Source: Comamonadaceae bacterium (GTDB lineage Bacteria > Pseudomonadota > Gammaproteobacteria > Burkholderiales > Burkholderiaceae_C). From it: 64,000 bases of DNA. Location of the stretch: contig CANBWK010000002.1 of NCBI GenBank assembly GCA_947373105.1, positions 1 to 64,000 of the forward strand, in the 5' to 3' direction. Positions 40,657-63,457 of this stretch are shown one piece after another. The position numbers were made by a program, and so were the translations under genes. Numbering within the stretch: position 1 is the first letter of the stretch; each line of letters starts with the position of its first letter. The notes below the pieces were generated by a model. The model ran no database searches. It saw only the letters and a program-made list of their open reading frames with translations, and had not been told where the DNA came from.

Positions 40657-40665
40657 GTCTTGTGC

Positions 40666-42543
40666 ATGGCAGATGATTTGAAAGGACTTGAAACTTGGAA
40701 CGATGCCATGACATCGTTGCAGCTGCTGCAAATTGATCCTCACGGGTTTGGTGGCGTTTGGTTGCGTGCGCCATTCGGGCCCGTGCGCGAACAGTGGTTG
40801 CAACATCTATCTCAAGCAGAGTTGAACACGGTCAAATTGCCCGGCAATATCGATATTGAACGCTTATTGGGAGGCATTGATTTGTCGCTCACGCTTCAAT
40901 CCGGCCGTTTGCACATGCAACCGGGTTTGCTTCAGCTAGCAGACCAGGGCTTGGTTTTGATCAGCATGGCTGAACGATTTTCTACGGCTTTGGTGGCGCC
41001 CATGACACAGGCCATGGACACGCAGTCATTGCCGCCATTGAAAATCGCTCCCCAAGAAGAATATCCAATTCGAACGCAATTTGGGGTGGTGGCCTTGGAT
41101 GAATCCATGAAAGACGACCCCCCTCTCAGCCCAGCACTTCAAGAGCGGCTGGGTTTATGGTTTGACCTGGAAGACCTTGCGCCGTCAGACATCATTGGGG
41201 TCTCGATGGACTCGCTCAACCAGTACAACGCCCAAGAGGCTGTCAGTATCCGAATTGCAGCAGATGCTTTGGCCCGTATGAAACAGGCTCGGTCTGAGAT
41301 TGAATGGACCGACGAGCAAGCGCTGGCTGTTTGCATCACCGCACAAGGATTGGGCATTGAGTCCTTACGTATCCCTACCTTGGCGCTGCGCGTGGCCAGC
41401 TGCCATGCCGCTTTGCATTTACGCAAGCACGTGAATGACGACGATTTGGCATTCGCTGCACGACGCGTGTTGGCGCCCCGGGCCACTCAATTGCCTGCAC
41501 CTGCTGAAAATGCTTCAGATACCGAACCTGAAAACAGCGCAAAGCCCGATTCAGAGCCCCCTGCACCGCCAGAACCCAGCAAGGATGAAGAAGAGGCTTC
41601 ATCAACGGATGAATCTGAAGAAGACTCAAGCACGGAAGAAGAGGACTCACCCAGCACGCTTTCTCCTGAAAATCTACAAGAAATGATGATCGCAGCGGCA
41701 TTGGCCAGCTTGCCACCCGACGTGTTGGATGGCTTGCTGACGAAACCCGGTCGCAACCTAGGCAACACCTCGGGAAGATCTGGACAATTCCGGACCGGTA
41801 CGCAGCGCGGGAGACCTTTGCCGCCTAGACCTGGGCGGCCTGACGGAAACGCACGTTTGCACATCTTGGCGACCCTGCGCGCCGCAGCGCCTAAACAACG
41901 CTTGAGGTCTGGCACGCAACCAGGGCGCGTCGCCATTCGAGCCGAGGACTTTCATGTGCAGCGCTACCAGCAGCACAGCTCCAGCTGCCTCATCTTGGCG
42001 CTGGATGCTTCAGGCTCAGCCGCACTTCAACGATTAGCCGAAGCCAAAGGGGCGGTGGAGCTTTTACTTCAACAGTCATACGCTCGGCGTGACAGTGTTT
42101 GCATTGTGGCTTTCAAAGGCGCGCAAGCTCAATTGCTGCTGCCCGCGACGCGTTCATTGGTTCGTGCAAAACGAGCCATGACAGGTCTTCCTGGGGGCGG
42201 TGGAACGCCTTTGGCACTGGCCTTGAAAATGGCTTGCGAACAAGCCTCACAGCTTCAGCGCCAAGGCGTAACGCCCATCTTGGTGGTGCTCAGTGATGGT
42301 CGGGCCAACGTGAACCTCCAAGGATTAGGGGGCCGTCCGCAAGCGCAAGCAGATGCACAACTATGGGCTGCCCAATGGCGACAAACCGGGCATCGCGCTT
42401 TGTGGATTGACACCTCACTTCAGCCCGACGCCCAAGTGCAAAAGATGGCGCACATCATGGGGGGGAGTTATATGCCCATGCCGCAAGTTCAAGCGCAACG
42501 CATGGCTACTGCCATGGACAACGTCAGGCGACTTGCCGCGTGA
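40666..42543 (+). CDS. bchD: Magnesium chelatase subunit BchD
   Basis: A 625-residue protein: a degenerate AAA+ domain (NIDIERLLGGIDLSLTLQSGR), a Pro/Glu/Ser-rich acidic linker around residues 285-335, and a C-terminal von Willebrand A domain with the MIDAS motif LALDASGSAA and VLSDGRANV. It bridges BchI and BchH. I start at the ATG at 40666 rather than the TTG two codons upstream. It ends 11 bases from the convergent SDR gene. Confidence 0.96.
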   Translation: MADDLKGLETWNDAMTSLQLLQIDPHGFGGVWLRAPFGPVREQWLQHLSQAELNTVKLPGNIDIERLLGGIDLSLTLQSGRLHMQPGLLQLADQGLVLISMAERFSTALVAPMTQAMDTQSLPPLKIAPQEEYPIRTQFGVVALDESMKDDPPLSPALQERLGLWFDLEDLAPSDIIGVSMDSLNQYNAQEAVSIRIAADALARMKQARSEIEWTDEQALAVCITAQGLGIESLRIPTLALRVASCHAALHLRKHVNDDDLAFAARRVLAPRATQLPAPAENASDTEPENSAKPDSEPPAPPEPSKDEEEASSTDESEEDSSTEEEDSPSTLSPENLQEMMIAAALASLPPDVLDGLLTKPGRNLGNTSGRSGQFRTGTQRGRPLPPRPGRPDGNARLHILATLRAAAPKQRLRSGTQPGRVAIRAEDFHVQRYQQHSSSCLILALDASGSAALQRLAEAKGAVELLLQQSYARRDSVCIVAFKGAQAQLLLPATRSLVRAKRAMTGLPGGGGTPLALALKMACEQASQLQRQGVTPILVVLSDGRANVNLQGLGGRPQAQADAQLWAAQWRQTGHRALWIDTSLQPDAQVQKMAHIMGGSYMPMPQVQAQRMATAMDNVRRLAA

Positions 42544-42554
42544 TCAATTGAAGA

Positions 42555-43499
42555 TTACAAGACATTGTCCTCATTTTTTTGTCGAGCGCGGGCCAATGTC
42601 CTTTCGCGCTCTCTGGGTCCAAAGCTGGATGCCAAGGCGCCTTCTGATACCAAACCCTCGAGGTAAGACTTCTCAATTTCAGGCGCTGCTTTGACCAGTT
42701 CGCGCTCAGCAAACGGCAAGTGCAGCAAGGCCCTCAGACCAAATAAAATTCGCAACCAACTGGGCAAAAAAATCCTGCGTTTGCGTTGAGTGATTGCCTG
42801 AACAATGGCATGTGCCGTTGCTTGTGCAGAAATTTCCTTGTTCAAAATCGCGGGCATGGTGGCTCGCAATCGAACAAAACCAGGGTGCAGCGCACCCTCT
42901 GTGACAAGGGGTGTGCTGACCCATCCTGCATACATCACACCGACTCCGACACCGTGGGCCGCGAGTTCAATGCGAAGCACATTGCCCATGGCTTCCACTG
43001 CAGACTTGCTGGCTGCATAGGCAGACATCGCGGGAGGGTGGGCAAAAGAGGATACAGAAGAATTAATCAACACATAACCACGCTGATCTATCAAAGCCGG
43101 TAGAGCAGATCGAACCGTGTTGAAAACACCAAAAATATTCACCTCCACGCAGCGTTGCCACGCTTGCGGGTCCACATAGGCCATCGGCCCAAAAGCGGCC
43201 ACGCCCGCATTCGCAAAAACCACATCAATGCGTTGGTAAACAGACAGCGTTTGCGCAACCACGCCATTCATCGCCGTCAGTTGTGTGACGTCCGCAACAA
43301 AATACAAGGTGTCTTGGCCGCAACGCTTAGCCATCACGGCCAGCGGTTGTGCATCGCAATCCACCAGAACAGGGATGCCGCCATGGCTCACAACTTCGAT
43401 GGCTGTCGCGGCGCCAATACCAGAAGCAGCGCCCGTGATCAAAACAACAAGCCCATCAAGCGGCAAGGTGTGTGATTTTCGAGTGGATTCGCCCGTCAT
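42555..43499 (-). CDS. Short-chain dehydrogenase of unknown substrate, at the end of the puh-crt operon
   Basis: A 314-residue classical SDR: ITGAASGIGAATAIEV, FANAGVAAFGP, catalytic Ser in LINSSVSSFAHPP and YAASKSAVEAM. The C-terminal extension (RRIFLPSWLRILFGLRALLHLPF) is hydrophobic and could touch the membrane, as in SDRs acting on lipids or retinoid-like substrates. I start at 43499; the track ORF adds 49 residues that overlap the DUF2269 gene. Its place after crtIB suggests a pigment or lipid-related substrate, but no known bacteriochlorophyll or carotenoid step is assigned to it. Confidence 0.82.
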   Translation of the reverse strand: MTGESTRKSHTLPLDGLVVLITGAASGIGAATAIEVVSHGGIPVLVDCDAQPLAVMAKRCGQDTLYFVADVTQLTAMNGVVAQTLSVYQRIDVVFANAGVAAFGPMAYVDPQAWQRCVEVNIFGVFNTVRSALPALIDQRGYVLINSSVSSFAHPPAMSAYAASKSAVEAMGNVLRIELAAHGVGVGVMYAGWVSTPLVTEGALHPGFVRLRATMPAILNKEISAQATAHAIVQAITQRKRRIFLPSWLRILFGLRALLHLPFAERELVKAAPEIEKSYLEGLVSEGALASSFGPRERERTLARARQKNEDNVL

Positions 43500-43512
43500 C
43501 AAAGGACCTGAT

Positions 43513-43965
43513 TCACAGGGTCTTGGTGACCATGAAATACACAATGGGCAAGGGAAGCACCGTGGCGATTGCGCCCGCAATTTGCCAGATGCGCGACAGC
43601 CGCCAATAGTCCTCGCAGACCGTGTCGGTGTTTTGCAGCAAGGCACGCTGCTTGAACTGAATGGGCACCAAGATGAACAACCAAATCAAACCTGAAAAAC
43701 TGAGCAAAGCATAGGACCATTGAATCCATGGATGCCCATCTGCACCCCCTATGTTCTCAGCCAAGCCATGCCCCGTCCAAACGACCCCAAGTGATCCTAG
43801 CAAGGTAAAAATCCCGTCGGTGATCAGCACCATGCGATTGCTGAATTGAATGATGGCGTGGTTACCCGTACGCTCGGCCAACAATGCCCATATGCCGCTC
43901 ACAATCACATTGCCTAAAAATAAACAAGCACAGACCAAATGAATTATCTTCAGATTAGCCCCCAT
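43513..43965 (-). CDS. DUF2269-like integral membrane protein
   Basis: A 150-residue protein with four hydrophobic segments starting LKIIHLVCACLFLGNVIVSGIWALLAER, the His-containing first helix of the DUF2269 type, and ending IAGAIATVLPLPIVYFMVTKTL. Function unknown to me. It overlaps the small upstream gene by 11 bases and is followed by the SDR gene after 13 bases, so all three belong to the puh-crt operon. Confidence 0.72.
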   Translation of the reverse strand: MGANLKIIHLVCACLFLGNVIVSGIWALLAERTGNHAIIQFSNRMVLITDGIFTLLGSLGVVWTGHGLAENIGGADGHPWIQWSYALLSFSGLIWLFILVPIQFKQRALLQNTDTVCEDYWRLSRIWQIAGAIATVLPLPIVYFMVTKTL

Positions 43966-44146
43966 GCGGTCCTCCCTTCACAAAGGCATCAGAAGGCCCT
44001 ATGCTGCTCTTCATGGATTCAGATTGTTCTGCCTCGCGCTGCCTACGGGTCATCTCACGGGCACGCCTCAGATCGCGAAACTGCCAGCTCACAAAGCAAA
44101 TTCCAGCGACGATCAAAACTACAACCTCGATAATTTTCAACATCAC
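43955..44146 (-). CDS. Small single-helix membrane protein in the photosynthesis operon
   Basis: 63 residues (or 62 from the second Met at 44143): one membrane helix IIEVVVLIVAGICFVSWQF, then a strongly basic stretch RDLRRAREMTRRQRE and a polar Gly-rich tail. It sits 6 bases after the crtB stop and overlaps the next gene by 11 bases, which supports it being real. I recognise no family. A one-helix topology with a basic cytosolic tail recalls small assembly or subunit proteins, but that is speculation. Confidence 0.6.
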   Translation of the reverse strand: MMLKIIEVVVLIVAGICFVSWQFRDLRRAREMTRRQREAEQSESMKSSIGPSDAFVKGGPHGG

Positions 44147-44152
44147 GGATGA

Positions 44153-45232
44153 TTAACGGTTGATTCTTTCGCGTTGCTCCAATCGACCGAATAAATCAAC
44201 CATCCACTCCACACGCTCATCGAAACTTCGCGAAGGAACCGTCCAGGGTTGTTGATAGCCCATGGGGTGTCGCTCACTGCTGACGATATCGACCAAATAA
44301 TGGATAGCAGGCACAGGACTCAAGGGGACTGCAGGTACTGCAGGCGCCTTGACCGCGACTGCGGTAGCCCGGGCAATCAGGGCCAGTTTGCGCGCGGTTG
44401 AAACCACCGTGCGGTGGTTCACAGAATTGAGGCCTTCTCGCTCTAATTGTTTGCCGATTTCGGCATAGACCAAACGTGCAGCTTGAATGGCAGGTCGACA
44501 GTCCCAAGGCAATTCAGCCAAACCAAATTCACCTCTGCGGTACAGGGCGTCTGCACGCAACAACAAGCGTTGCGTGAAACCCGCAATGCGCGAATCAAAC
44601 ACCGGATCGGCCAACCAGGCGTCTGCGTCCATGCCAATTTCACGGAACCAAGCTCGGGGAATGTACAAGCGCCCCATGCGCGCATCATCGCCAATGTCCC
44701 TGGCAATGTTGGTCAGTTGCATGGCCACCCCCAGCTCGCTTGCGCGTGCTATAGCGGTGTCTGTGCTCGCGCCCATGATGATTGACATCATGGCGCCCAC
44801 GGTACCAGCCACTCTGGCACCATAAGCTTCCACATCGGCCAAGGTTTCGTAGCGGCGGCCTTGGGAATCCCACAAGAAACCATCCAGCAAGGCCTCGAGC
44901 AAGCCGCAGGGAATGCCATAGCGATGAACCACAATGGTCAAAGCGCGGTCAGCGTCTTCAGCGCCAGGGCGTCCAGCATAGATCGCAGCTAAGCGCGACT
45001 TCAAATCGGCCATGGCCAAAACCGGGTCATCGCCTTCGTCAATGGCATCGTCGGCCAAGCGGCAAAAAGCATACAGGGCGATTGCAGGCGGACGCAGACG
45101 CGTTGGAAGCAATCTGGAGGCCGCAAAAAAAGATTTTGAGCCCCCTCGCATGAGTTCGGTGCAAGCCTCTAAGTCGTAAGGCAAGGACACTGGGGGAGAA
45201 TTCAAATTTGAATCAGACGAAGGATTTGACAT
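44153..45232 (-). CDS. crtB: Phytoene synthase CrtB
   Basis: A 359-residue squalene/phytoene synthase with both Asp-rich motifs, YAFCRLADDAIDEGDD and MQLTNIARDIGDDARMGRLYIP. It condenses two geranylgeranyl diphosphates to phytoene. I start at the ATG at 45232 (MSNPSSDSN), which overlaps the end of crtI by 20 bases; the track start is six codons earlier. Confidence 0.94.
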   Translation of the reverse strand: MSNPSSDSNLNSPPVSLPYDLEACTELMRGGSKSFFAASRLLPTRLRPPAIALYAFCRLADDAIDEGDDPVLAMADLKSRLAAIYAGRPGAEDADRALTIVVHRYGIPCGLLEALLDGFLWDSQGRRYETLADVEAYGARVAGTVGAMMSIIMGASTDTAIARASELGVAMQLTNIARDIGDDARMGRLYIPRAWFREIGMDADAWLADPVFDSRIAGFTQRLLLRADALYRRGEFGLAELPWDCRPAIQAARLVYAEIGKQLEREGLNSVNHRTVVSTARKLALIARATAVAVKAPAVPAVPLSPVPAIHYLVDIVSSERHPMGYQQPWTVPSRSFDERVEWMVDLFGRLEQRERINR

Positions 45233-46796
45233 CGGGGACCACCTGTTCAAGCATTTTTGCGGACATCAAGACACTGGGCACGCCTGCGCCGGGCTGGCTA
45301 CTGGCACCCACCATGAATAAACCATCCACATCTTGGCATCTGTTGTGCGGACGGAACCATGCACTTTGGACCAAGATGGGCTCCAGACCAAAACCTGCGC
45401 CTTTGTAAGACCACAAGCGGTCTTGGAAATCTTGCGGTGTAGTGACTTTGGAAGACACCACGTGCTGTTTCAAATCAGGCAGCACACTTTCTTGCAGCAC
45501 CGTGGCAATGGCATCGCGGTACTGCTCGGTGATGGCCGGCCAGTCGGTTTCGCTGCTTAAGTTGGGCACCACCGACAGCGCATAAAAACTGTCACAGCCC
45601 TCAGGTGCCAACGAGGGATCGGTGGCGGTTGGGCGGTACAAGTACAAACTGAAATCTTTGGACAATTTGTGATTCTTGAAAATATCTTGCAGCAAGCCTT
45701 TGTAGCGTGGGCCTAACACCATCATGTGGTGCGGCACATCTTCGTACTTCCGATTGGTGCCAAAGTACCAAACGAATAAACCCGAAGAATATTTGCCTTT
45801 GGCAATGCGCTTGTCAGTCCAATGTTTGCGGTGCTGGGGCTCAATGAGATGGCGGTAAGTCCAAGATGCATCGCCGTTGCTCACCACAATGTCGGCAGGC
45901 AAATAGTCGCCATTGGCCAGCTCAACACCCTTGGCACGGCCGTCCTCCACGCGAATGCGTGTGACGGGTGCGTTGTAACGAATGGGCACTTGGCGCTCAT
46001 CGAGCAACTTCACCAGTTCACGCACGATGGCGCCGGTGCCACCCATAGCAGAGTGCACGCCCCAACGGCGCTCCAGGGAATGGATGAGCGAATAAACGCA
46101 AGTGACAGAATAAGGATTGCCACCAATGAGCAAAGGGTGAAAGCTCATGACGATGCGCAACTTGGGGTGCTTAATGTGTTGTGCCACCAAGCTGTATATG
46201 GAGCGCCAAGCTTGCATGCGCGCCAAATTAGGCATGGCTTTGATCACGTCGCCAAGGGTTTCAAAAGGCACCATGCCCAATTCAACAAAACCCAGCTGGA
46301 AACACTTCTCAGACGCTACCATCAGGTTCTTAAAACCTTGTATGTCTTCAGGACTGAATTTGGCAATTTGCTCGAGCATTTGCTCGTCGTTGTTGCTGTA
46401 GTCAAAGTGCGTGCCATCGTCAAACCGAATGCGGTAGAAAGGCGACATCAAGCGCAGGTCGACATGGTCTTTCATCTCTCGACCACACAGTGTGAAAAGC
46501 TCCGCAATGAGATGCGGCAGAGTGATGATGGTGGGGCCCGCGTCGAAGGTGAAACCATCTTGCTTGTGCACATAAGCACGGCCACCGGGGGCATCGAGCT
46601 TTTCCAACACTTGAACGCGATAGCCTTTAACGCTCAAACGAATGGCTGCCGCCAAGCCACCAAATCCTGTACCAATCACAATGGCTGTGGGTGCACGATC
46701 GCCAAGTTCTGAGGCTGAACCCATGCGGTGGTTTTGATTACCACCCCCACCTCCCGAGCCGCCGACGGAGTTAATTGACTTGAAGAGATTTGTCAT
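45213..46796 (-). CDS. crtI: Phytoene desaturase CrtI
   Basis: A flavin-dependent desaturase of 527 residues: IVIGTGFGGLAAAIRLSVKGYRVQVLEK (FAD), GGRAYVHKQDGFTFDAGPTIIT, and the C-terminal FMVGASSQPGAGVPSVLMSAK bacterial carotenoid-dehydrogenase signature. It turns phytoene into neurosporene or lycopene. From the ATG at 46796 there is a roughly 35-residue Gly-rich leader before the FAD motif; an internal ATG at 46724 would remove it. The start overlaps puhE by 26 bases. Confidence 0.94.
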   Translation of the reverse strand: MTNLFKSINSVGGSGGGGGNQNHRMGSASELGDRAPTAIVIGTGFGGLAAAIRLSVKGYRVQVLEKLDAPGGRAYVHKQDGFTFDAGPTIITLPHLIAELFTLCGREMKDHVDLRLMSPFYRIRFDDGTHFDYSNNDEQMLEQIAKFSPEDIQGFKNLMVASEKCFQLGFVELGMVPFETLGDVIKAMPNLARMQAWRSIYSLVAQHIKHPKLRIVMSFHPLLIGGNPYSVTCVYSLIHSLERRWGVHSAMGGTGAIVRELVKLLDERQVPIRYNAPVTRIRVEDGRAKGVELANGDYLPADIVVSNGDASWTYRHLIEPQHRKHWTDKRIAKGKYSSGLFVWYFGTNRKYEDVPHHMMVLGPRYKGLLQDIFKNHKLSKDFSLYLYRPTATDPSLAPEGCDSFYALSVVPNLSSETDWPAITEQYRDAIATVLQESVLPDLKQHVVSSKVTTPQDFQDRLWSYKGAGFGLEPILVQSAWFRPHNRCQDVDGLFMVGASSQPGAGVPSVLMSAKMLEQVVPDVKSFV

Positions 46797-47619
46797 GTGA
46801 ATCCAAGTGAGCAGGTAAAACCGGAGGCACAAGGGGCTCAAAGGCTGCAGGATTTTCTGATTGGCGCTTGCGAATGGCCCATCGCCATAAGGCAGTGGTG
46901 TCTAGCGGGAGGACCAGCATCAGGTGTTCGACTATGGCCAAGGCCAGCATGGTGCCCACCAAAACCACGCCCACTACTTGCGCAGGTGTGGTCATGGGTT
47001 GGCTTGCGAAGTCCACCAAGAACCACAAACAAGCACTGGCTGACGCCACTGCAAATGGGAAAAATGCATTCATACGGCGGCGCTTGAAGAAACTCTCCAA
47101 ATAGGCCAAATGCGCAGGCAAAAATTCTTCACTCAAATTGCGAACGCCAAAGAACAGGTTCAATTTGGCACTGGTCCGCATGATCCACAAGACAAAATAC
47201 GTGCCTGTTCCCACTTGGTTAGGCGCATCCCAAGTGATGGCCGCAATGGCCAAGCCCACCATGAGAATCGCCAACTCGTGCCAAAGCACAGCATTAAAGG
47301 ACGCGATAAATCGCGGGATTCCTGTTGTGCTTTTCAAGATGGCTGTTTTTTGAGGTCCAGTGATCCAGCCTGTGAGAAAACTCAACTCGTTCCAACCCCA
47401 AGCCAGCAAGGCACAAGTGAAAGCACAGTAGGCTCCCGTGACGCCTGTTTGTTGCGCTGTATGGGCCAAACCCGCCAAGGCGCCAAGTCCCAGCGCAGAG
47501 GAGATAACCAAACTCAGGGTCACAGCCGTGCGCGACATGCGATTTAAGAGAATCACTATGCCGGTGCTGAACCACCAGATAAAAATCGCAAATCCCAACG
47601 CAACAAAGGTGTCGGTCAT
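46771..47619 (-). CDS. puhE: Photosynthetic complex assembly protein PuhE
   Basis: A 282-residue protein with about seven hydrophobic helices, matching the PuhE family (IWWFSTGIVILLNR, SFLTGWITGP, FHEL-like WHELAILMVGLAI). PuhE affects reaction-centre and light-harvesting assembly in Rhodobacter. It lies between acsF and crtI as in other purple bacteria. Confidence 0.92.
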   Translation of the reverse strand: MTDTFVALGFAIFIWWFSTGIVILLNRMSRTAVTLSLVISSALGLGALAGLAHTAQQTGVTGAYCAFTCALLAWGWNELSFLTGWITGPQKTAILKSTTGIPRFIASFNAVLWHELAILMVGLAIAAITWDAPNQVGTGTYFVLWIMRTSAKLNLFFGVRNLSEEFLPAHLAYLESFFKRRRMNAFFPFAVASASACLWFLVDFASQPMTTPAQVVGVVLVGTMLALAIVEHLMLVLPLDTTALWRWAIRKRQSENPAAFEPLVPPVLPAHLDSHDKSLQVN

Positions 47620-61111: not shown

Positions 61112-61966
61112 ATGGGGGTCGCTGTGACTCAGTTTAAATTTGAAAAATTGAATACTTCAATAGAAAAACATAGGACTTCGGGGTCACAAGACACCAAGCT
61201 CAATCTCGAGTTTGGCTCTAGCCCTCGCCTGGTCGGTGGCACAAGCTTTGTGAAGCAAGCTGCTCTCGATCAAGTCCAAGTGAAACTGCTTTCTCAAGCG
61301 GCCATCCACAGCATGGACGAGACGCGCAAAATCTTGATGAAGTGGCGTCGACAAGGCCATTGCCTGGCGGATATTTACCTCCAAGGCATTACGGCGGCCT
61401 CAAGACTGATCGGTGAACTCTGGGCGACAGACGAACTGGACTTTGCCAACATCAACATAGCCTTTTCACGCCTGCACCGTGCTTTGCACGAATTCAGCAC
61501 AGAATTCTTAGCCGAAGGGAGAGGCGAATCGAATGGCTTGAGCTTGCTGTTAATGACAGAGCCTGGCTCTCACCACGGGATGGGGGCTTTTATGTTGAGT
61601 GAGTTCTTCCGTCAAGCCGGCTGGCGGGTCATGCTCCTCGCACCCCAAGACATTACAGATTTCAAGAGAATGTTCCTGTCTGATTGGTTTGATGCTGTTT
61701 TGCTGTCGATTTCAACAGACCGCCAAATAGATAGCGTCTCCCAGACCGTGTCTGAATTGCGTGACACAACGGTCAATCCTGATTTGAAAATTTATGTGGG
61801 CGGGCCAATGGCTTGTATATCCCCAAGCCTGCTTAATTGGGCGGGAACCTCATTACTTGATAAAGACGCGGCCCAAACCTTGGAAATTGTGACCCAAGCT
61901 GTACATGCTTCAACCCCTTCTTTTTCAGAAGAATTTCGCCACATAAGATCTCTTCAAAATTGTTGA
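61112..61966 (+). CDS. aerR: AerR/PpaA-type cobalamin-binding antirepressor
   Basis: A 284-residue protein with a helical N-terminal part (MDETRKILMKWRRQGHCLADIYLQGITAASRLIGELWATDELDFANINIAFSRLHRAL) and a Rossmann-like C-terminal half (EPGSHHGMGAFMLSEFFRQAGWRVMLL, YVGGPM). This is the B12-binding (SCHIC) architecture of AerR/PpaA, which relieves repression by PpsR in Rhodobacter. ATG at 61112 follows weak signals; GTG at 61124 behind GGGGG is possible. Its promoter shares the PpsR sites with bchF, and ppsR is the next gene. Confidence 0.88.
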   Translation: MGVAVTQFKFEKLNTSIEKHRTSGSQDTKLNLEFGSSPRLVGGTSFVKQAALDQVQVKLLSQAAIHSMDETRKILMKWRRQGHCLADIYLQGITAASRLIGELWATDELDFANINIAFSRLHRALHEFSTEFLAEGRGESNGLSLLLMTEPGSHHGMGAFMLSEFFRQAGWRVMLLAPQDITDFKRMFLSDWFDAVLLSISTDRQIDSVSQTVSELRDTTVNPDLKIYVGGPMACISPSLLNWAGTSLLDKDAAQTLEIVTQAVHASTPSFSEEFRHIRSLQNC

Positions 61967-62056: not shown

Positions 62057-63457
62057 ATGATGAACTTTGCCGATCTTAATGATATTAACTTTAACAAATT
62101 GTTAGGATTGGTTTCAGACGTTAGTTTGGTCATCAGCGACAAAGGCTTCATCGAGGACGTGTCAACTGGACAAGACACCATGGCGACCTTAGGTTGTCAT
62201 AACTGGCTTGGCAAGCGGTGGATAGACACTGTGACATCCGAAAGCAAAAAGAAAATTCAAGATTTACTGGTCATCCAACCAGAACCTCAAAGCCTAGTTT
62301 GGCGCCACGTCAATCACCCAATGCCCTCTGGCGGTGAAGCCGCTATCCAATACATCACTGTTGCGCTGAAAGGCAACAAACTGCTGGCAATAGGGAGAAA
62401 CCTAGAGCGCCTTGCAGAACTTCAACGCCGCCTAGTTGAAACTCAGCAGTCCATGGAGCGTGATTTTCTGAGGCTCAGGCACATTGAAGCACGTTATCGT
62501 GTCTTGTTCGAAACCTCCCCCGAAGCTGTGCTGGTGGTCGATACGCATTCATATCGCTTGATTGAAACGAATGCAGGCGCTCAATCGCTTTTCAAAGATG
62601 CTGGCAAACGACTGGTGGGTCGGGATTTCCGAGAGTGCTTTAAGCCCGAAAGTCAAGGTGAGGTTCAATCCCTGCTTAAAACCGCCCTCGCGACCGGCAG
62701 AATTGAAATATGTTCGGCCACCATACTGGGGGCGGCCTCACCCATGACCGTATCAGCCAACGTATTTAGGCAAGAAGGTGGGGCGCAATTTTTGGTACGT
62801 CTGACCCAGCGCGAGCCCTCCGCAACCGCTCACCTGAAAATAGACGCTTCCGTGGTTTTGAGTGAAGCGATGGAGCACTTCCCCGACGGATGGCTGTTGA
62901 CAGACCCTTCTGGTATGGTGAGAAGTGTGAATGAGGAAGGCATGGCGCTACTCGGGCTGACGGCAGCATCACAAGTGGTGGGCCAATCACTTGAACGTTG
63001 GTTGATCCGTGGTGCAGTGGATTGGGGGGTGCTCAACACCTCTTTGAAACAACAAAAGCCCGTGAGAAACTTTGCCACAGAAGTGAGAACACTCTCGGGC
63101 ATGACGCTGCCCGTTGAGATCTCTGGCGTCTATTTGGCTAAGCCAGAGCCACTCTTTGTGATGTTCGTGAGAGATTTAAATCGGCGTTCGCAGTCATCTG
63201 CGCAGGCCTCCCCGACCGTGCCTAATCCATTTGCTGAATTGTCACAATTGGTGGGCCGCCGACCGATAAAGGACATCGTGGGCGATACCGTCGATACGAT
63301 TGAACGCATGTGCATCGAAGCGGCCCTCGAGTTAACGCACAACAACCGCGCCTCTGCGGCCGAAATGCTTGGACTTTCGCGTCAAAGTCTTTATGTCAAG
63401 CTCAGAAGATTTGGCGTTTTGTCAGAAAACGATTTCGACTCAGAAGCCAGCGCCTGA
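62057..63457 (+). CDS. ppsR: Transcriptional repressor PpsR/CrtJ
   Basis: A 466-residue protein with PAS-type domains (about residues 10-110, 150-270 and 275-385) and a C-terminal Fis-type helix-turn-helix (ALELTHNNRASAAEMLGLSRQSLYVKLRRFGVL). It represses bch, crt and puc genes under oxygen. A Cys at residue 419 (ERMCIEAALEL), just before the HTH, lies where the redox-sensing Cys of CrtJ/PpsR (about 420-424) is found; this is positional matching only. It sits between two cobalamin-binding-type regulators. Confidence 0.93.
   Translation: MMNFADLNDINFNKLLGLVSDVSLVISDKGFIEDVSTGQDTMATLGCHNWLGKRWIDTVTSESKKKIQDLLVIQPEPQSLVWRHVNHPMPSGGEAAIQYITVALKGNKLLAIGRNLERLAELQRRLVETQQSMERDFLRLRHIEARYRVLFETSPEAVLVVDTHSYRLIETNAGAQSLFKDAGKRLVGRDFRECFKPESQGEVQSLLKTALATGRIEICSATILGAASPMTVSANVFRQEGGAQFLVRLTQREPSATAHLKIDASVVLSEAMEHFPDGWLLTDPSGMVRSVNEEGMALLGLTAASQVVGQSLERWLIRGAVDWGVLNTSLKQQKPVRNFATEVRTLSGMTLPVEISGVYLAKPEPLFVMFVRDLNRRSQSSAQASPTVPNPFAELSQLVGRRPIKDIVGDTVDTIERMCIEAALELTHNNRASAAEMLGLSRQSLYVKLRRFGVLSENDFDSEASA

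Follow-up and report, generated by a model that had tools for sequence, protein, structure and literature searches.

The smallest of the three genes that follow crtB at the tail of the puh-crt operon, a small open reading frame (smORF), is the most interesting part of this locus: in every sample searched its family is restricted to phototrophs, usually in the slot after crtB. A sequence-only reading of the same DNA had grouped it with its two younger neighbours, a DUF2269 membrane protein and an SDR, as one coupled set. The tight packing is real, but smORF is by far the oldest and most widespread of the three. The other two form a cluster-linked pair in freshwater Comamonadaceae and their relatives, a younger addition in this lineage. 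Although the photosynthesis clusters of purple bacteria are among the best-studied gene clusters, smORF is annotated as 'hypothetical' and no family in Pfam or NCBIfam matched it. From conservation, linkage and form we propose, with slightly less than even confidence, that an old core gene for a photosynthetic-membrane adaptor or assembly subunit has been joined here by a younger add-on, an SDR-DUF2269 pair for isoprenoid redox chemistry.

In the window, i.e. the whole stretch of 64,000 nucleotides analysed, the three genes lie on the same strand behind crtB (Table 1); the packing described before was verified from the coordinates, and the assignments as a DUF2269-like protein and an SDR were upheld by Pfam and NCBIfam. 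crtB and smORF are separated by a 6-base gap, smORF and the DUF2269 gene overlap by 11 bases, a 13-base gap precedes the SDR gene, and this ends 11 bases from the convergent bchD. Judged by their names, the three genes indeed fall outside the textbook set of cluster genes, yet smORF is conserved widely as a gene of such clusters. The opposite end of the bch-puh operon has a B12-binding (CarH/AerR-like) protein (61112-61966, + strand) followed by PpsR/CrtJ (62057-63457, + strand), after which comes a second B12-binding-like ORF (L065:3662-4480).

Table 1. Genes at the tail of the puh-crt operon (positions in the window)
Feature	Position	Strand	Remarks
bchD	40660-42543	+	name from bchI-bchD position and sequence
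SDR gene	42555-43499	-	314 aa
DUF2269 (PF10027) gene	43513-43965	-	150 aa
smORF	43955-44146	-	GTG start, 63 aa; alternative ATG at 44143, 62 aa
crtB, phytoene synthase	44153-45232	-	directly upstream of smORF; stop at 44153
crtI, phytoene desaturase family	45213-46841	-	
puhE	46771-47619	-	
acsF, puhC, puhB, puhA, lhaA, bchM			further upstream of puhE in the operon

Sequence and form of smORF

The family was recognised when the position behind crtB was inspected in 28 further phototrophic genomes, many of which contain short ORFs with the same ungapped and near-constant core, [E/D]-x13-W-[Q/E], followed by a basic arm. In its own frame smORF has a pN/pS of 0.19 for close pairs and 0.41 when pooled over 74 aligned cores, while the other two frames of the same 74 cores give 1.37 and 1.78. 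Because the own-frame values are low in comparison to the other two frames, smORF is, as judged from these alignments, a genuine and translated-looking gene under purifying selection. The first 19 residues are predicted to form a strong membrane helix, and by the positive-inside rule the basic arm should lie in the cytoplasm, i.e. a single-helix protein with its N-terminus outside and its C-terminus inside is predicted. A few members (from L139, L141 and G046) carry Lys in place of the acidic helix residue. The copy of G046 (L189:3422-3580) is one of these, and the change to Lys is seen in lineages whose DUF2269 gene has been relocated to the puf-crt operon tail.

PufQ, PufX and other such proteins of purple bacteria are short, have one membrane helix, are encoded in the photosynthesis cluster and are limited to phototrophs. 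smORF resembles them in all four respects, but shows no sequence match to them and is sited after crtB or bchO, outside the puf operon; the PufQ model was not among the 25 Pfam families listed for 29 smORF members at E<=1. A complementary distribution of smORF and PufQ was considered and dropped, as in gammaproteobacteria and in other alphaproteobacteria smORF coexists with a small helix ORF in front of pufB. Such one-helix ORFs, PufQ-like in position, lie between bchZ and pufB in gammaproteobacteria and some alphaproteobacteria (L201, L206, L207, L246). CcmD (PF04995) is similar in form, being short, with one helix, an outside N-terminus and a basic arm in the cytoplasm, and the false positive that comes closest to the smORF family in profile searches is CcmD-like (E 3e-4), yet just one of the 29 members matches PF04995 (E 0.084). 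TatA/TatB matched a single member of the family at E 0.019. A search of solved structures for small RC-LH1 subunits gave residues 90-111 of the reaction centre (RC) L subunit as the best match (E 0.095); with the same family counted three times, mimicry of the L subunit was treated as chance. A plasmid search with one alphaproteobacterial smORF gave no match.

smORF in phototrophs and non-phototrophs

The family sample comprises 201 genomes, of which pufM marks 34 as phototrophs and leaves 167 as non-phototrophs. At E<=5e-5, a cut-off chosen after the scores were seen, the smORF profile finds 29 of the 34 pufM-positive genomes and none of the 167 others; the first count is partly circular, as 14 of these genomes supplied profile sequences, and the Fisher value of 3e-30 was computed on this circular set. 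With the 14 source genomes left out, smORF is found in 15 of 20 phototrophs. The best match in a non-phototroph (6.7e-4) is confined to 18 residues of a 515-aa frame. Five phototrophs (G042, G093, G104, G172, G196) lack smORF or have a copy that escaped detection; two of these genomes are just 80-83% complete. One genome, G046, has a BLUF blue-light sensor protein between smORF and the SDR (L189:2925-3425, - strand).

Outside the family the class sample of 369 genomes contains 7 with pufM and 362 non-phototrophs. A profile holding no gammaproteobacterial outgroup sequences (A2) finds four of the five phototrophs outside the family at 9.5e-14 to 2.9e-7, all gammaproteobacteria, and the fifth at 0.13. 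After outgroup sequences were added, the profile matches all 7 phototrophs and no other genome below 1.9e-4, the value of the best match among the 362 non-phototrophs, which lies inside a 501-aa frame. The gammaproteobacterial contexts include crtI-crtB-smORF and tspO-FrhB/BciB-like-smORF-crtI. In one gammaproteobacterial phototroph (G306) smORF lies outside the cluster and overlaps the gene of an Epimerase/DUF1731 (TIGR01777-like) oxidoreductase (L193:581-1689, - strand).

In the phylum sample a profile built without alphaproteobacterial sequences (A3) recovers eight of 16 alphaproteobacterial phototrophs at E<=1e-4, seven of them in the cluster and five directly after crtB. One of these phototrophs (G815) apparently has two tandem smORF-like ORFs after crtB (L234:6552-7714, - strand). 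Standalone matches in sphingomonads, whose phototrophy was judged from the neighbouring genes, either follow bchI-bchD-bchO and precede crtC or lie close to pufC; one more sits on a locus (L255) too short to place it. In Novosphingobium capsulatum, with the order bchI-bchD-bchO-'hypothetical protein'-crtC-crtD, smORF is the 'hypothetical protein'. Sphingomonad matches inside long frames, including a CcmD, were rejected as false. No convincing match was found in five Rhodobacteraceae-like genomes, an assignment that, like that of the sphingomonads, was inferred from gene order and a named relative. For Dinoroseobacter, a hypothetical gene after crtB-tspO (Dshi_3511) has been called not cluster-specific (PMC6052148). 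Because smORF is missing or undetected in five of the 34 family phototrophs and in most of the Rhodobacteraceae-like genomes sampled, it is not universally needed for phototrophy.

The DUF2269-SDR pair

The DUF2269 protein matches PF10027 with 85.1 bits (cut-off 28), and its AlphaFold2 model (pLDDT 88.6) has four helices (2-33, 36-71, 79-112, 118-147). Cluster-type and distant members have K6, H9, D50, T54, W80, W95, Q103, Y120, W127 and a few glycines in common. Strong matches (at least 60% identity) occur in four of the 34 phototrophs of the family sample (G000, G093, G125, G046) and in none of the 167 non-phototrophs, while matches with at most 33% identity are found in 34 genomes. All 80 named close relatives, mostly from metagenome-assembled genomes of freshwater Comamonadaceae and from Limnohabitans isolates, lie in photosynthesis clusters beside crtB or crtC; as this set was chosen by similarity, it tells where close relatives are located and not how frequent the gene is. 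Two records among such loci, titled Singulisphaera and Methylobacillus (L078, L118), carry Comamonadaceae-type clusters and are probably misnamed metagenome bins. In the open library we found no paper naming DUF2269 together with photosynthesis gene clusters. The domain is listed in expression data (PMC11267869), and a weak HMM similarity to the membrane domain DUF989 of PuuD has been described (E 0.15; PMC4562309).

The SDR belongs to adh_short (PF00106, 144 bits) and scores 283.5 bits against NCBIfam PRK05872 (cut-off 276). TGxxxGxG, NAG and N121-S148-Y161-K165 are invariant or nearly so in 38 orthologues, and D47, where the second strand ends, points to NAD(H) as cofactor. The hydrophobic C-terminal tail proposed in the sequence-only reading was a mistake: the hydrophobic stretch (about residues 243-262), with a hydrophobic/amphipathic helix at about 246-262, is internal, and the polar C-terminal 40 residues have a mean Kyte-Doolittle value of -0.8. 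With its full catalytic motif and a hydrophobic helix in the C-terminal part, the protein is like PRK05872, HSD17B13 and 11beta-HSD1. The model resembles many SDR structures at about 20-29% identity, including the membrane-associated HSD17B13 and 11beta-HSD1, which is weak evidence for the substrate, as classical SDRs resemble many structures. Light-dependent protochlorophyllide reductase, also an SDR, was not among the best 25 of 207 NCBIfam matches. Orthologues at E<=1e-60 occur in three of the 201 genomes (G000, G046, G125), all phototrophs, and each one seen lies in a photosynthesis cluster.

Most often the genes are ordered crtI-crtB-smORF-DUF2269-SDR, after which comes a convergent gene, either crtC or, in the window for example, bchD. 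In two loci (L139, L141) DUF2269-SDR closes the puf-crt operon, behind crtC, with smORF still after crtB, and in L144 the two genes sit on opposite operon tails. DUF2269 alone is kept, with smORF and SDR missing, in L098, L101 and G093. An apparent order smORF-SDR-DUF2269 in some loci was rejected as an artefact of upstream-extended ORF starts. In L111 the first DUF2269-SDR pair is followed downstream by another (74% and 71% identity), and L083 and L085 have a second crtI-like gene on the far side of the SDR. The three genes had been proposed to be linked to phototrophy, which would predict conservation in other betaproteobacterial clusters and absence from non-phototrophic relatives. Two non-phototrophs of the same genus (G088, G190) have none of the three, and an equal presence in non-phototrophs away from cluster genes was looked for and did not occur.

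Possible functions of the pair and of smORF

A role in pigment, membrane or carotenoid chemistry had been suggested for the three genes. The link to phototrophy stands, while a specifically carotenoid role is unproven. Because the pair, or all three genes, persists in clusters without crtA and crtD, some of which also are without crtI, a late spheroidenone step is unlikely, and a link of the SDR to CrtA is weakened. We suggest that the SDR would be an NAD(H)-dependent enzyme lying on the membrane via its internal helix, that DUF2269 would be its four-helix membrane partner, and that both may oxidise or reduce an isoprenoid dissolved in the membrane, with a carotenoid or a different pigment or quinone intermediate as the likeliest substrate. 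The partner role is supported by the repeated coupling of DUF2269 to SDRs of different types, so that DUF2269 is probably a membrane partner of an SDR. Outside the clusters, an ORF of the SDR-DoxX_3 type ends no more than a few tens of bases upstream of DUF2269 in 17 of 26 loci, most of the others have a separate SDR ORF slightly further upstream, and in rhizobia and Paracoccus the two genes overlap by one base. These non-phototroph proteins are of the same Pfam family as the one studied here (25-33% identity), but differ in arrangement and partner: their adjacent SDR gene precedes that of DUF2269 (in at least 17 of the 26 loci, and in rhizobia and Paracoccus), whereas here it follows, and their SDR belongs to the epimerase/NAD_binding_10 type, with DoxX_3 either fused to it or encoded next, unlike the classical SDR of the window. 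For the large membrane family DUF2269 a testable hypothesis results, namely that its members are membrane partners of SDR oxidoreductases.

It is somewhat unlikely that the pair instead acts on quinones or membrane lipids, its site in the cluster serving light-stress protection and not pigment synthesis. The SDR-DoxX_3-DUF2269 units of non-phototrophs would fit such a function, as would the persistence of the pair where crtA, crtD and crtI are missing, but only phototrophs have the pair in its cluster-type form, and at every locus seen it stands next to crtB or crtC.

For smORF we favour, tentatively and well aware that the odds lie below even, the view that it is a core accessory protein, so far without a name, which serves the photosystem of purple bacteria, has been inherited by alpha-, beta- and gammaproteobacteria alike and is needed for efficient assembly or pigment loading of the photosynthetic membrane. 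Such a small membrane adaptor or assembly subunit, with an acidic residue near one end of its helix, W-Q/E near the cytoplasmic end and the basic arm behind it, would attach to some larger partner in the membrane and deliver pigments or pigment enzymes to the photosystem as it assembles. It may be a missing part of assembly or pigment delivery, which is testable in laboratory phototrophs. The position directly after crtB in most betaproteobacterial and many alpha- and gammaproteobacterial clusters could also point to a protein that anchors CrtB and CrtI to the membrane or stabilises them, and is dedicated to these enzymes instead of the photosystem. This we consider rather unlikely, as the sphingomonad clusters have no crtI or crtB at the smORF site and smORF is nevertheless kept after bchI-bchD-bchO, there only in cluster-bearing genomes, and as four genomes with smORF away from crtB or from the cluster (G006, G141, G002, G115) are still phototrophs.

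It is quite improbable that DUF2269, in place of being an SDR partner, handles haem or porphyrins in the membrane for tetrapyrrole supply, in the manner of HemJ/CopD, which it may resemble. H9, which stands within K-x-x-H of the first helix, is the sole His conserved in all members and is kept even in paralogues of about 30% identity. However, neither solved structures nor profile matches support this function, a Foldseek search of the PDB with the model having returned generic four-helix matches alone and no E below 0.3, and the repeated coupling to SDR genes would be left unexplained.

Hitch-hiking of the three genes without any photosynthetic role is very improbable: compact operons can carry passengers and two of the three genes have been lost in some loci, but smORF appears to be under purifying selection, DUF2269-SDR has kept its linkage when relocated within the cluster, and the same-genus non-phototrophs lack all three.
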